Positions 50,268-54,400 of a stretch of DNA of 54,553 nucleotides are shown in pieces; the stretch's first letter is position 1; the number at the start of each line of letters is the position of its first letter. Origin of the DNA: an uncultured Fidelibacterota bacterium. GTDB taxonomy: Bacteria; Fidelibacterota; UBA8477; JABMPR01. Where the stretch lies: the NCBI GenBank assembly GCA_937888365.1, contig CALBFA010000029.1, forward strand, positions 1 through 54,553, written 5' to 3'. The notes below the pieces were generated by a model. It saw only the letters and a program-made list of their open reading frames with translations. It was not told the origin of the DNA and ran no database searches. The position numbers were made by a program, and so were the translations under genes.

Positions 50268-50294
50268 AAAGAGCCCATAATGGGCTCTTTTTTT
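50268..50294 (+). terminator. Intrinsic terminator after rpmB
   Basis: AAAGAGCCCA (50268-50277) pairs with TGGGCTCTTT (50281-50290) around a three-base loop, and a run of T continues to 50294. It lies 34 bases after the rpmB stop and isolates rpmB from the GMC oxidoreductase gene. Confidence 0.92.
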
Positions 50295-50376: not shown

Positions 50377-51954
50377 ATGAGTACTAGACATAATTTTGAC
50401 ATTATCATTATCGGATCAGGATTTGGTGGTTCCGTTTCTGCTCTACGCTTAACTCAAAAAGGTTATAAGGTTGCTGTTATTGAAAAGGGGAAACGTTTCC
50501 TCCCTACCGATTATGCAAAAAGTAATTGGAATCTTCGAAAATATTTTTTCATACCAAAATTGGGTTTTTATGGCATTCAATGTCTTACGCTGCTAAAACA
50601 TGTTTTCATTCTTCATGGCGCTGGAGTCGGCGGCGGTTCATTAGTTTATGCCAACAATCTTTTAGTACCACCTGATTCAGTTTTTGCCAACGAAGGTTGG
50701 GGATCTGGAAATTGGAAGGAGAAATTGTCTCCTCATTATAAGATGGCTCAAACAATGCTCGGTGCTACACCCAGCGCTTCCGTCGATAAAAGCGATTTAT
50801 TACTCAAAGAAGTTGGTATTGAATTACGTGGTTTTGATACATTCCACATCAACGATGTCGGAATCTATTACGGCGAAACGGTTGCCGACCCTTACTTTAA
50901 TGGTGAAGGCCCTGAACGGACAGGTTGTACCTACTGCGGCGCGTGCATGGTTGGTTGTCGTGATGGTGGTAAAAATACGCTTGATAAAAATTATCTCTAT
51001 CTAGCTGAAAAACTCGGTGCAACCATCATACCTGAGGAAGAAGTTGTTGACCTTCTTTATAATAAAGAAAGTGTTGAAATTACATCCAAAAGGACAACAG
51101 GTATTTTTTCTCCTAAAAGAAAGTTTTCCGCATCAAAAATAATTTTTTCTGGAGGTGTTCTTGGGACAGTCCCCTTACTTTCTAAACTTAAAAAAAGAGG
51201 ACGTCTTCCAAATTTATCAGAGCACCTAGGCAATTTTGTTCGAACAAATTCAGAAGCCTTATTAGCCGTACATGACCCTCATAAAGATGCTAATTATTCG
51301 AAGCAAATTGCAATTACTTCTGGCATATATCCCGATGACGATACGCATATCGAAATCGTTCGATACCCCGAAGGAAGTGACGTCATGGCGCTTTTGTCAA
51401 CTTTGTTGGTCGGGGGAAATAAAAATATCCCACGTCCTTTCTTATTTTTACTGGAAATTTTAAAACATCCAGTCCGCTTTGTTCGTCAGTTGTGGCCTTT
51501 AAATTGGGCTCAAAAAACACCCATTTTATTAGTGATGCAAACCGTCGATAACTACCTGAGACTTAACTATAAACGACGCTGGTGGCGTTTGGGTTTACCA
51601 AGTTTGAATTCCGAAATGGGACCCAATCAAAAGAAAATTCCTTCATTTATTCCTGTCGCAAATGAGGTTGCAGAACGTCTGGCGAAAAAAATGGATGGTC
51701 ACGCCGCAAGCGTCCTACCTGAGGTTCTTTTTGATGTCTCATCAACGGCTCATATACTCGGAGGATGCATCATAGGCGAAAATAACAATAATAGCGTTAT
51801 TAATGAACGGGGTCAAATTCATAGCTATCCGAATCTATATATTGTTGATGGCTCAATCGTTCCTGTCAATCTTGGCGTTAATCCTAGCCTCACGATAACA
51901 GCTTTGGCCGAATACATAATGTCTCAATTTCCCCCATCAAAAGAGATTGAATAA
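50377..51954 (+). CDS. GMC-family FAD oxidoreductase (cholesterol-oxidase-like)
   Basis: The 525-residue flavoenzyme has the FAD motif IIIIGSGFGGSVSALRL (G13, G15, G18), HGAGVGGGSLVYANNLLVPP, and a C-terminal GMC domain with STAHILGGCIIGEN and LYIVDGSIVPVNLGVNPS. It also has CTYCGACMVGC, with Cys at 184, 187, 190 and 194, which has the spacing of a 4Fe-4S ferredoxin site. A similar cysteine motif occurs in some cholesterol-oxidase-like proteins. It probably oxidises an alcohol, but the substrate is unknown. No signal peptide is seen. It precedes the ABC genes by six bases. Confidence 0.85.
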   Translation: MSTRHNFDIIIIGSGFGGSVSALRLTQKGYKVAVIEKGKRFLPTDYAKSNWNLRKYFFIPKLGFYGIQCLTLLKHVFILHGAGVGGGSLVYANNLLVPPDSVFANEGWGSGNWKEKLSPHYKMAQTMLGATPSASVDKSDLLLKEVGIELRGFDTFHINDVGIYYGETVADPYFNGEGPERTGCTYCGACMVGCRDGGKNTLDKNYLYLAEKLGATIIPEEEVVDLLYNKESVEITSKRTTGIFSPKRKFSASKIIFSGGVLGTVPLLSKLKKRGRLPNLSEHLGNFVRTNSEALLAVHDPHKDANYSKQIAITSGIYPDDDTHIEIVRYPEGSDVMALLSTLLVGGNKNIPRPFLFLLEILKHPVRFVRQLWPLNWAQKTPILLVMQTVDNYLRLNYKRRWWRLGLPSLNSEMGPNQKKIPSFIPVANEVAERLAKKMDGHAASVLPEVLFDVSSTAHILGGCIIGENNNNSVINERGQIHSYPNLYIVDGSIVPVNLGVNPSLTITALAEYIMSQFPPSKEIE

Positions 51955-51960
51955 AATGCG

Positions 51961-52866
51961 ATGAATGCACTCCAAACCTATAATTTATCGAAACAATTTG
52001 CACATTTACAGGCACTCGATAATATCAATCTCGCTGTGCCCAAAGGAAGTATTTTTGGATTCCTAGGTCCAAATGGATCAGGGAAGTCAACGCTTATCAA
52101 GATTTTGACAGGATTGATAGCGCCGACGAACGGGACTTTTTCTGTATTTGAGAAACAGAGTTCAGAAGGTTATAAAGTTAGAGAAAATATGTCAGCGCTG
52201 GTTGACAGAGCCGATTTTTATAAAAATCTATCAGCTTATGATAATCTTATGCTGATGGCGCGCCTTTCAAACCATGATTCCGCACAAAACATTGACGAAA
52301 TTCTTAATTTAGTGGGTCTTTATCAGCGTCGTCATGACAAAGTCAAAACATTTAGCCAAGGGATGAAGCAACGTCTAGGTATTGGACAAGCACTTCTACC
52401 TGATCCGAAATTATTAATACTCGACGAACCAACGACTGGCCTTGACCCATTAGGCATGGTGGAAGTTCGAGACTTTATTTTAAAAATTGCGAAAGAGCGA
52501 AATGTTACGATTTTTCTCAGTTCTCACTTATTGCATGAAGTTGAGGAAATTTGTTCTCATGTGGGGCTTATTTTCAACGGTAAAATGGAAAATCAGGGCT
52601 CGATCGAAACGATTTTTTCGTCTATAGATCAAGTAACGATTGACTTAGAAATTGATAAAAAGCCGGAAACAGTAAAGATTTTGTCAACATTAGAAGGTAT
52701 TGAATCCATTCAAGAACTACCAAATTTACTCAAAATTAAAATTAAATATGCGGAAATTCCCACACTGATTCAAAAATTAGTAAAAGATGATATTAAAATT
52801 TTTGGGATCTCACAAAGGAATCGTTTAGAGACTTTCTTTTTAAATCGTTCGAGAGATCAATCATGA
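51961..52866 (+). CDS. ABC transporter ATP-binding protein
   Basis: The 301-residue ATPase belongs to the ABC-2 type class (CcmA/NatA-like). Walker A is GFLGPNGSGKST near residues 34-45, the signature is FSQGMKQRLGIGQAL near 136, Walker B is LLILDEPTTGLDPLG near 158, and the H-loop is IFLSSHLLHEVE. A C-terminal domain of about 80 residues follows. It lies six bases after the GMC gene and overlaps the permease gene by four bases. Confidence 0.93.
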   Translation: MNALQTYNLSKQFAHLQALDNINLAVPKGSIFGFLGPNGSGKSTLIKILTGLIAPTNGTFSVFEKQSSEGYKVRENMSALVDRADFYKNLSAYDNLMLMARLSNHDSAQNIDEILNLVGLYQRRHDKVKTFSQGMKQRLGIGQALLPDPKLLILDEPTTGLDPLGMVEVRDFILKIAKERNVTIFLSSHLLHEVEEICSHVGLIFNGKMENQGSIETIFSSIDQVTIDLEIDKKPETVKILSTLEGIESIQELPNLLKIKIKYAEIPTLIQKLVKDDIKIFGISQRNRLETFFLNRSRDQS

Positions 52867-53702
52867 TGGTGGGTCTTTTCAAAAACGAAGTAAAAAAATT
52901 GTATTCGCACTGGCGATCATTTATGGGATATATTTTATTCCTTGTGCTGATCCCAATCATTATGTGGGCTTATGGTAAAGGTGCTGACGGCATTCCAAGT
53001 GCCTTTCCGGAAAACTATTCTGACTTATTTCTCTTTACTGGGAAATTGAATAACGGTTTAACGGCTGCATATTTTGTGTTGAATTTCTTTTGGGTTCATA
53101 TTCCATTCCTCATTGCACTTGTTGGAGGTGATATTTTTGCAGGCGAGGAAGCACAGGGAACGTATCGGATTTATCTTACAAGAGCCGTCCCACGTTGGAA
53201 AATATTTGTATCAAAAGTCCTCGCCTCATTTTTTTATACTTTTACAATTGTCGTATTATTTATCATCATGACTTTAGGTCTCGGCCTTATATGGCACGGC
53301 TCTGGTGATATGGTCGTTTTTCATGAGGGAATGCTAATTCTTCCCCAATCTGAGGCATTATATCGTTTTTTCTTAGCTTATATTTTCGCTTTTTCTAACA
53401 TGTTACTCGTCAATATAATTGCCCTTTTTTTCTCAACAATGGTAAAAAATTCCATTGGTCCAATGGTTGGTACGATGGCTGTTATCATATTTTTTCTGGC
53501 ATTAACATCGCTACCGCTTGATGTGTTTGACTCTATTCGACCCTATCTTTTTACACATTATTTTGATAATTGGAAGATTATGTTTTATGATCCCATTCCA
53601 TGGGGAAAAGTCGTTCAAAGTATGCTTGTGATTTCAGGACATAGCATCATTCTTTTATTCGCTGCTTTCTATATTTTTAATCGAAAGGATATTGTCTCAT
53701 GA
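52863..53702 (+). CDS. ABC-2 type transporter permease
   Basis: The 279-residue membrane protein has six likely helices, with an N-terminal amphipathic stretch (KNEVKKLYSHWRSFMGYILF) and GGDIFAGEEAQGTYRIYLTRAVPRWKIFVSK, the loop typical of ABC-2 permeases. Only one permease gene is present, so it should form a homodimer or pair with another. The substrate cannot be read. It overlaps the ATPase and the LolA-like gene by four bases each. Confidence 0.9.
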   Translation: MMVGLFKNEVKKLYSHWRSFMGYILFLVLIPIIMWAYGKGADGIPSAFPENYSDLFLFTGKLNNGLTAAYFVLNFFWVHIPFLIALVGGDIFAGEEAQGTYRIYLTRAVPRWKIFVSKVLASFFYTFTIVVLFIIMTLGLGLIWHGSGDMVVFHEGMLILPQSEALYRFFLAYIFAFSNMLLVNIIALFFSTMVKNSIGPMVGTMAVIIFFLALTSLPLDVFDSIRPYLFTHYFDNWKIMFYDPIPWGKVVQSMLVISGHSIILLFAAFYIFNRKDIVS

Positions 53703-54400
53703 GGCGATTGCTGTTACTATTTCTTATAATATCATTTTCATTTGCTCAAGATGACAATAAAGCCATCACTATATTACAAGGCATCAATGCCAACTATTCG
53801 GCAATTCAAGATTTTACGACAGAAATCAAAGTCGATATAAATTTACCAGGATTTAGGATGCCAAATAAAGACGTTAAATATTTTTATAAAGCACCCGATA
53901 AAAGCAAAATAGAATCCAAAGGTTTCGCTTTTGTCCCAAAAGACGGCATCCTCCCTTTCGCTGAACTGGTGAAACGAGACTCTCTTAAAAATCTGACTAT
54001 TACAGAAATTATCGGGGATACAGTCGTGATAACTTTAGTCGACACGTTTCAAAACCAAGAAGCTATCATGACATTAAAAGTACACGAACCTAGCGCCACC
54101 ATTATTCAGGGCTCAGCCTCTATTAATAATCAAAATATTTTGACATTTCATATTCATTATATTTCAATACATGGAATTTATCTGCCAGACGAATCCGCCA
54201 TTGATTTACTTCTCCCACCCGACTTTAAAAAAATTCAAATGTTGGGCACATCACCATCACAGGCGAAAAAATTTAAGGAAAAAATTAAGGATAATAAAGA
54301 ATGGGTTGATGGAAAAATTCATTTGAAATTTTCCAATTATATTGTCAATCAAGGTCTTTCTGACGAAATATTTGAGGAAGCCGTCGAAACGGTTGATTAA
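53699..54400 (+). CDS. LolA-like secreted protein
   Basis: The 233-residue protein has a signal peptide (MRRLLLLFLIISFSFAQ, cut near residue 17). It then has a LolA/DUF4292-like domain: the helix ILQGINANYSAIQDFTTEIKV, a strand run including DVKYFYKAPDKSKIESKGF, and EAIMTLKVHEPSATIIQGS. It is the third gene of a coupled ABC trio, so it may act as a periplasmic carrier for what the ABC pump exports. It differs in sequence from the LolA-like protein at 13787-14386. The 153 bases after it hold nothing I recognise. Confidence 0.65.
   Translation: MRRLLLLFLIISFSFAQDDNKAITILQGINANYSAIQDFTTEIKVDINLPGFRMPNKDVKYFYKAPDKSKIESKGFAFVPKDGILPFAELVKRDSLKNLTITEIIGDTVVITLVDTFQNQEAIMTLKVHEPSATIIQGSASINNQNILTFHIHYISIHGIYLPDESAIDLLLPPDFKKIQMLGTSPSQAKKFKEKIKDNKEWVDGKIHLKFSNYIVNQGLSDEIFEEAVETVD

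Follow-up and report, generated by a model that had tools for sequence, protein, structure and literature searches.

A conserved trio of ABC ATPase, ABC-2 permease and predicted LolA-fold carrier genes in Candidatus Neomarinimicrobiota and Bacteroidota, a candidate export route for hydrophobic cargo

Described pairings of membrane pumps and periplasmic carriers

The LolCDE-LolA system joins an ABC pump to a periplasmic carrier of the LolA fold; the LolCDE permeases are of the type VII MacB/FtsX class and have a large periplasmic domain, through which LolC docks LolA. Excerpts of published work describe several other arrangements. In Borrelia, BBJ26, BBJ27 and BBJ28 are an ATPase, a permease and a LolA-like protein that are encoded together, and a non-polar ligand has been proposed for them; as excerpted, the permease is MacB-like (type VII) and there are extra TPR and Omp85 partners (PMC13078400). 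The LprG-Rv1410 system of Mycobacterium tuberculosis, which according to the excerpt combines an MFS pump with a lipoprotein carrier in a mycomembrane organism, passes triacylglyceride from the pump to the periplasmic lipoprotein (PMC10576003). Operons of Porphyromonas and Prevotella encode an MMPL transporter and an outer membrane lipoprotein-sorting protein together with extra ABC proteins, and they are strongly raised at low iron (PMC10434189, excerpt). Finally, LolA2-LolB2 of Flavobacterium are encoded in the flexirubin locus, a pigment biosynthesis operon, where the LolA paralogue has been proposed to handle a special lipophilic cargo (PMC11885536, excerpt).

The locus described here encodes an ABC ATPase, an ABC-2 permease and a predicted LolA-fold carrier, hereafter the trio. 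It shares with LolCDE-LolA the use of an ABC pump and a LolA-fold periplasmic carrier, but its permease is neither MacB- nor FtsX-like, and its carrier falls below the cut-offs of PF03548 and LolA1_Flavo. It resembles BBJ26-28, as excerpted, in the co-encoding of ATPase, permease and LolA-like protein; the MMPL operons in placing a membrane pump and a putative lipoprotein-sorting-type protein in a single operon; LprG-Rv1410 in the possible hand-over from pump to lipid carrier, with LprG a weak fold match to the trio carrier (Z 6.5); and LolA2-LolB2 in having a LolA-type protein for which a special lipophilic cargo can be proposed. The features listed above for each of these four systems set it apart from the trio. 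In particular, the nearest analogues rely on other pumps, namely an MFS pump in LprG-Rv1410, a MacB-type pump in BBJ26-28 and MMPL pumps in the Porphyromonas and Prevotella operons. Among the matches listed in the open-access literature, none deals with a LolA-fold carrier paired with an ABC-2 permease.

The locus and its transcription unit

The window, that is the whole stretch of DNA analysed, is an entire contig of 54,553 bases from a 2.53 Mb genome that is 95% complete. The closest named relatives of the ATPase in a contig scan, from which records of its own genome were possibly excluded, are Candidatus Neomarinimicrobiota MAGs, the group to which the host belongs. The following features, all on the forward strand, make up the locus:

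50268 to 50290, + strand: terminator-like hairpin of 10 pairs with a T run, 3' of the L28 gene (consensus match only)
50377 to 51954, + strand: GMC oxidoreductase, cholesterol-oxidase-like, a neighbour and not part of the core (family match below cut-off)
51961 to 52866, + strand: ABC ATPase, DrrA/NosF/ABCA-like, 301 aa (Pfam, NCBIfam, motifs in the translation)
52863 to 53702, + strand: ABC-2 (type V) permease, 279 aa (Pfam, predicted structure)
53699 to 54400, + strand: LolA-fold carrier, 233 aa (predicted structure, sub-threshold NCBIfam matches)
54379 to 54394, + strand: terminator-like hairpin of 6 pairs, weaker, at the end of the carrier gene (consensus match only)

An earlier sequence-only reading had the three genes overlapping by four bases, and the ORF coordinates indeed give 4 bp at both junctions. 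A gap of 6 bp separates the GMC oxidoreductase gene from the start of the ATPase; this gene is probably co-transcribed with the trio, so that the transcription unit would begin with it. This unit is set apart from the ribosomal protein L28 gene, since the strong terminator-like hairpin at 50268-50290 lies between them. The weaker hairpin at 54379-54394 would close the unit. The contig ends at 54553, and an Rfam scan of the window found two tRNAs, none of them near the trio.

The GMC oxidoreductase scores 574.6 bits with the cholesterol-oxidase family (cut-off 850), which prompted consideration of a sterol or hopanoid cargo. This idea is weakened because the gene is limited to the two nearest families, f1 and f2, being near the trio in 12 of their 20 loci and in none of the 32 other Neomarinimicrobiota loci, and because the squalene-hopene cyclase family PF13249 is found in 0 of 22 related genomes, the locus's own genome among them. 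An imported sterol remains compatible with these observations.

The ATPase and the permease

The ATPase matches Pfam ABC_tran with 105.5 bits (cut-off 25), and its motifs are intact in the translation: Walker A GPNGSGKST, signature FSQGMKQR, Walker B LLILDEPTTGLD and H-loop SSH. Among solved structures, ABCA phospholipid transporters are nearest to it, followed by 1vpl, 4yer and NosF (NosF E 1e-38), while its top NCBIfam matches, lantibiotic protection and DrrA, are both sub-threshold. The permease matches Pfam ABC2_membrane_2 with 35.8 bits (cut-off 27.2); only ABC2_membrane families appear at E≤1 in Pfam, with no FtsX or MacB match, and NCBIfam adds a weak MutG match of 27.7 bits (cut-off 117). 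A structure model of the permease (pLDDT 83.1, pTM 0.82) predicts about six long helices with short loops and a small beta-hairpin at residues 150-160. Among solved structures, NosY is its best sequence-profile match and the sole one at E≤0.01 (E 3e-5), and also its best fold match (7znq_y, Z 18.8 over 232 residues at 3.2 A), after which the fold is closest to ABCG/PDR-class exporters (8bi0_A, ABCG-type, Z 17.7). The locus thus has what defines an ABC-2/type V exporter, an ABC ATPase with intact motifs and a permease of the ABC2_membrane class, the permease fold being predicted; as modelled, the permease is type V (NosY-like).

NosDFY serves nitrous oxide reductase, and its ABC unit uses ATP to change the shape of a periplasmic partner. 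It resembles the trio in its pump subunits, since among solved structures NosY comes closest to the permease and NosF ranks with the nearer ATPases, but the partner of NosFY is NosD, whereas the third protein of the trio has no NosD family match and is predicted to adopt the LolA fold. The permease fold is undecided between a NosDFY-like unit and an exporter because the Z score of 8bi0_A is near that of NosY.

The carrier

Comparisons of the carrier drew on two alignments: A1, with 43 of 53 carrier ORFs after exclusion of near-duplicates, one partial ORF and one with masked bases, and A2, with 54 of 80 loci (L031-L110). Two further alignments, A3 and A4, cover 43 and 35 loci, respectively. Because A1 and A3 include rows from genomes that were then re-searched (A1 also four f6 rows), the matches in those genomes are partly by construction; two data sets described below, the survey of 296 Bacteroidota genomes and the A1 scoring of 64 ATPase-selected loci, are largely independent of this circularity.

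By sequence, no Pfam family scores above its cut-off on the carrier, PF03548 gives no match at E≤1, and no LolA_like or LolA profile exceeds its curated cut-off. Sub-threshold NCBIfam matches are LolA1_Flavo at residues 5-43 (E 0.0005, 19.8 bits, cut-off 100) and, also N-terminal, LolA3_fam (E 0.032). The same families recur below threshold in A2, LolA1_Flavo in 41 of 55 members (E≤0.1) and LolA3_fam in 25 of 55, and weak PF17131 matches (E≤0.1) are found in 9 of the 44 members of A1 and 14 of the 55 of A2. A profile search of the PDB with A1 returned no significant LolA, since 7tpm LolA reached E 0.26 and ranked below a ribosomal protein (E 0.061), and the corresponding search with A2 returned one match, which is unrelated. 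The sequence evidence is therefore weak but agrees with a LolA fold. LolA3_fam is unsupported as a name for the carrier by a survey of the order of genome G101: it has matches in 46 of 60 genomes of that order, none above the family cut-off, and neither the permease nor the ATPase of the trio was seen beside the match in any of 20 loci within the flank examined.

The AlphaFold2 model of the carrier (pLDDT 86.4, pTM 0.80; alignment of 55 sequences) is an open beta-barrel. Foldseek matched it to DUF1329 (4z48), a LolA-superfamily protein (3buu), Porphyromonas LolA3 (9tp6) and many LolA chains; nearly all of the 35 chains at E≤0.001 are of the LolA/LolB superfamily, though the TM-scores are modest, at about 0.3 to 0.5. 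VIA-align gave Z 14.9 to 4z48 (179 residues, 3.0 A), Z 14.3 to 3bk5 (177 residues, 3.1 A) and Z 14.3 to Porphyromonas LolA3 9tp6_A (175 residues, 2.9 A), then Z 12.6 to Porphyromonas LolB, 12.5 to 3buu_B and about 8 to 9 to several proteobacterial LolA proteins (2w7q_B, 9.3), with the possibly more distant RseB, MucB and VioE at about 7. The earlier description of the third protein as LolA-like thus agrees with its predicted structure; given the outcome of the PDB profile searches, the assignment draws on that fold together with the weak family matches. The carrier has an N-terminal signal peptide with no lipobox cysteine (judged by eye from the sequence), and a lipobox-like pattern is rare across members (1 of 44 in A1, 0 of 55 in A2), features of a protein that is probably soluble.

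Conservation of the trio

Searched with a single sequence, 59 of 100 Neomarinimicrobiota genomes have the carrier. When 100 genomes were surveyed with profiles, at E≤1e-20 for the permease and E≤1e-6 for the carrier, the permease was found in 52, the carrier in 70 and both in 51. All three ORFs were recovered by script in 47 of 53 loci (52 stretches plus locus L046). With L046 set aside, all 46 remaining loci share gene order and strand; 45 of them have both junctions within -11 to +60 bp, and the exact 4-bp overlap occurs between ATPase and permease in 23 and between permease and carrier in 27, with ORF starts picked by the script for these counts. In L046, an in-frame TAA interrupts the permease ORF (1825-2661) at codon 24, whereas the ORFs on both sides stay open; sequencing error or decay could account for this. 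The six loci without a full trio comprise one at a contig end (L155), one with the permease about 12 kb away (L145) and four of family f6. This family also accounts for 18 of the 19 genomes (of 100) that have the carrier without the permease, and in the four f6 loci the neighbours of the carrier, read by eye, seem unrelated to the trio: RNase Z-like, endonuclease IV-like, sugar-nucleotide and kinase-like genes. The f6 carriers (L157, L159, L161, L162) read TVPDR where others have FRMPxK; conserved stretches of the carrier besides the FRMP motif are PDK and GFAxxPKxG.

The trio extends beyond this phylum. A contig scan by ATPase similarity kept 80 of 228 loci, which include records of Chitinophagaceae, Ignavibacteriae, Kapabacteria, Chloroherpeton and Bacteroidales. 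When 64 of the ATPase-selected loci (L047-L110, mostly Bacteroidota) were scored with a carrier profile built from the Neomarinimicrobiota rows and L046, 57 had the carrier directly downstream (E≤1e-5). The seven without it comprise two at contig ends and five in which some 5 kb of flank lacks a carrier. In addition, a permease profile matched 66 of 296 Bacteroidota genomes, with a single match in each (E≤1e-30). Of these 66 matches, 29 were read as further loci: the ATPase adjoins the permease in 29 of 29, and the carrier is directly downstream in 20, follows after about 0.8 kb in 1 and lies behind an MFS transporter gene in 2, whereas 6 loci showed no carrier within 1.5 kb. Of these six, L197 and L210 have an MFS gene after the permease that takes up most of the flank. 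The MFS gene between ABC-2 permease and LolA-fold carrier in L198 and L199 recalls LprG-Rv1410.

Conservation in other genomes, which the earlier proposal of a single machine led one to expect, is thus found in all 46 Neomarinimicrobiota loci with three recovered ORFs and in most ATPase-selected loci. The neighbours beyond the trio vary by lineage while the three genes persist. Clusters of winged-helix proteins are found upstream in 25 of 63 non-Neomarinimicrobiota loci and after the trio in 13 of 53 Neomarinimicrobiota loci (both by cluster median), and the one representative scanned from each is HTH_34 and PadR, respectively. These PadR-type and HTH_34 clusters near the trio (L135, L086) suggest inducible expression.

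Lol-type genes in the same genome and its relatives

The sequence-only reading held that the trio is not LolCDE, and the rest of the genome bears this out. Apart from the permease lacking an FtsX or MacB match, a separate contig (C72) of the same genome encodes two tandem permeases, for which lolCE is the best NCBIfam match (279.6 and 237.9 bits, cut-off 362), and an ATPase best matched by LolD (271.5 bits, cut-off 307.8); the matches are full length and all below cut-off. Another contig (C104; L170 1937-5971) carries a Pfam-confirmed ATPase-FtsX-FtsX-LolA_like operon with junctions of a few bases each, except for about 110 bp after the ATPase. This operon has the same gene order as the trio, of ATPase, permease(s) and LolA-superfamily carrier, but it has two FtsX permeases and its carrier scores well above the PF17131 cut-off. 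Since both of these operons are encoded elsewhere in the genome, the trio is not LolCDE, and a role as a LolCDE replacement is disfavoured.

It is less clear-cut which LolA serves the LolC/E proteins of these bacteria. Matches of the lolCE type are present in 22 of 22 related genomes (G000-G027), whereas classical LolA (PF03548) is found in only 4 of 22, 2 of them above cut-off, and the own genome has one borderline LolA on contig C40 (22.5 bits, cut-off 23.6). Given this disparity, the trio carrier might also serve LolCDE. It is one candidate, and PF17131 proteins, which are present in 20 of the 22 genomes and number four in the own genome, are others. On 18 contigs chosen by eye, one from the own genome included, PF17131 and lolCE-model matches lie within about 4 kb of each other.

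Proposed mechanism and alternatives

Taken together, the trio is plausibly one machine. We propose, with confidence a little above even, that it is a type V ABC exporter that loads hydrophobic cargo onto the co-encoded LolA-fold carrier, likely toward the outer membrane. Two ATPase and two permease subunits would assemble the exporter. Its cargo would be hydrophobic or amphiphilic, be it a lipid, a lipid-linked product or some lipophilic metabolite; the exporter would draw it out of the inner membrane and pass it to the soluble LolA-fold protein, which would shield the cargo in the periplasm and most likely carry it toward the outer membrane. The main reason for preferring this pump-and-carrier reading is that the layout of ATPase, permease and LolA-superfamily protein occurs at least twice in the genome, with different permease classes. 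The trio probably gives greasy cargo a pathway of its own, so far little noticed, out of the inner membrane into the periplasm. More tentatively, it could be a dedicated type V ABC-to-LolA route of Neomarinimicrobiota and many Bacteroidota that stands apart from LolCDE and takes a non-lipoprotein lipid to the outer membrane. If so, LolA-fold carriers would be paired with a further class of pump, besides type VII ABC, MFS and MMPL, and the trio would be a compact candidate for carrying a lipid across the periplasm in lineages about whose outer-membrane lipid transport little is known. Against coupling, carrier and pump occur apart in places (the f6 genomes, 5 of 64 and 6 of 29 loci), and against a hand-over of the LolA type, the modelled permease lacks a large periplasmic domain of the LolC kind. 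Candidate docking sites for the mouth of the carrier would be the permease loops at residues 41-64, 146-160 and 220-241, whose sides of the membrane are tentatively assigned.

Alternatively, the trio may be a pump like those of DrrAB and lantibiotic protection that serves inducible efflux or immunity; its LolA-fold protein would then catch an expelled amphiphile or guard the periplasmic face. We regard this as unlikely. The sub-threshold matches of the ATPase to lantibiotic protection and DrrA and of the permease to MutG point this way, as do the winged-helix clusters near the trio, but no such regulator gene was recognised among the ORFs and Pfam matches of the operon in the window, and the single permease match in each of the 66 Bacteroidota genomes, together with the spread over two phyla, looks more like an old resident system than like resistance that was acquired. 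A LolA-type carrier is not known as a usual component of such pumps.

A role in lipoprotein sorting appears rather improbable, whether as an additional pathway used by a subset of outer-membrane lipoproteins or with the carrier doubling as the LolA of the LolCDE in the same genome. Such a role would accord with the predicted LolA fold and sub-threshold LolA1_Flavo and LolA3_fam matches of the carrier, with the scarcity of PF03548 relative to LolC/E-type genes and with the retention of the carrier without the permease in f6. Nevertheless, the permease has no MacB/FtsX match, other LolA-superfamily proteins exist in these genomes (PF17131 in most, and the borderline LolA of the own genome), and Porphyromonas LolA3, among the closest folds to the carrier, binds LolB weakly according to an excerpt (PMC13103446). 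Least probable, and doubtful throughout, is a NosDFY-like unit that moves no cargo and uses ATP to reshape the periplasmic LolA-fold partner as a sensor or remodelling factor: NosY is closest to the permease by profile and fold, NosF is among the nearer ATPases and NosFY, from structure titles, also pairs with a periplasmic protein, but the partner here has a LolA fold instead of being NosD, and ABCG-type exporters fit the permease nearly as well.

The type V export reading may be open to genetics, as the trio occurs in named Bacteroidota strains, for example of Sediminibacterium and Hydrotalea. The Sediminibacterium salmoneum genome of locus L077 also contains a second, diverged ATPase-permease-carrier trio (L182; permease E 1.8e-49).
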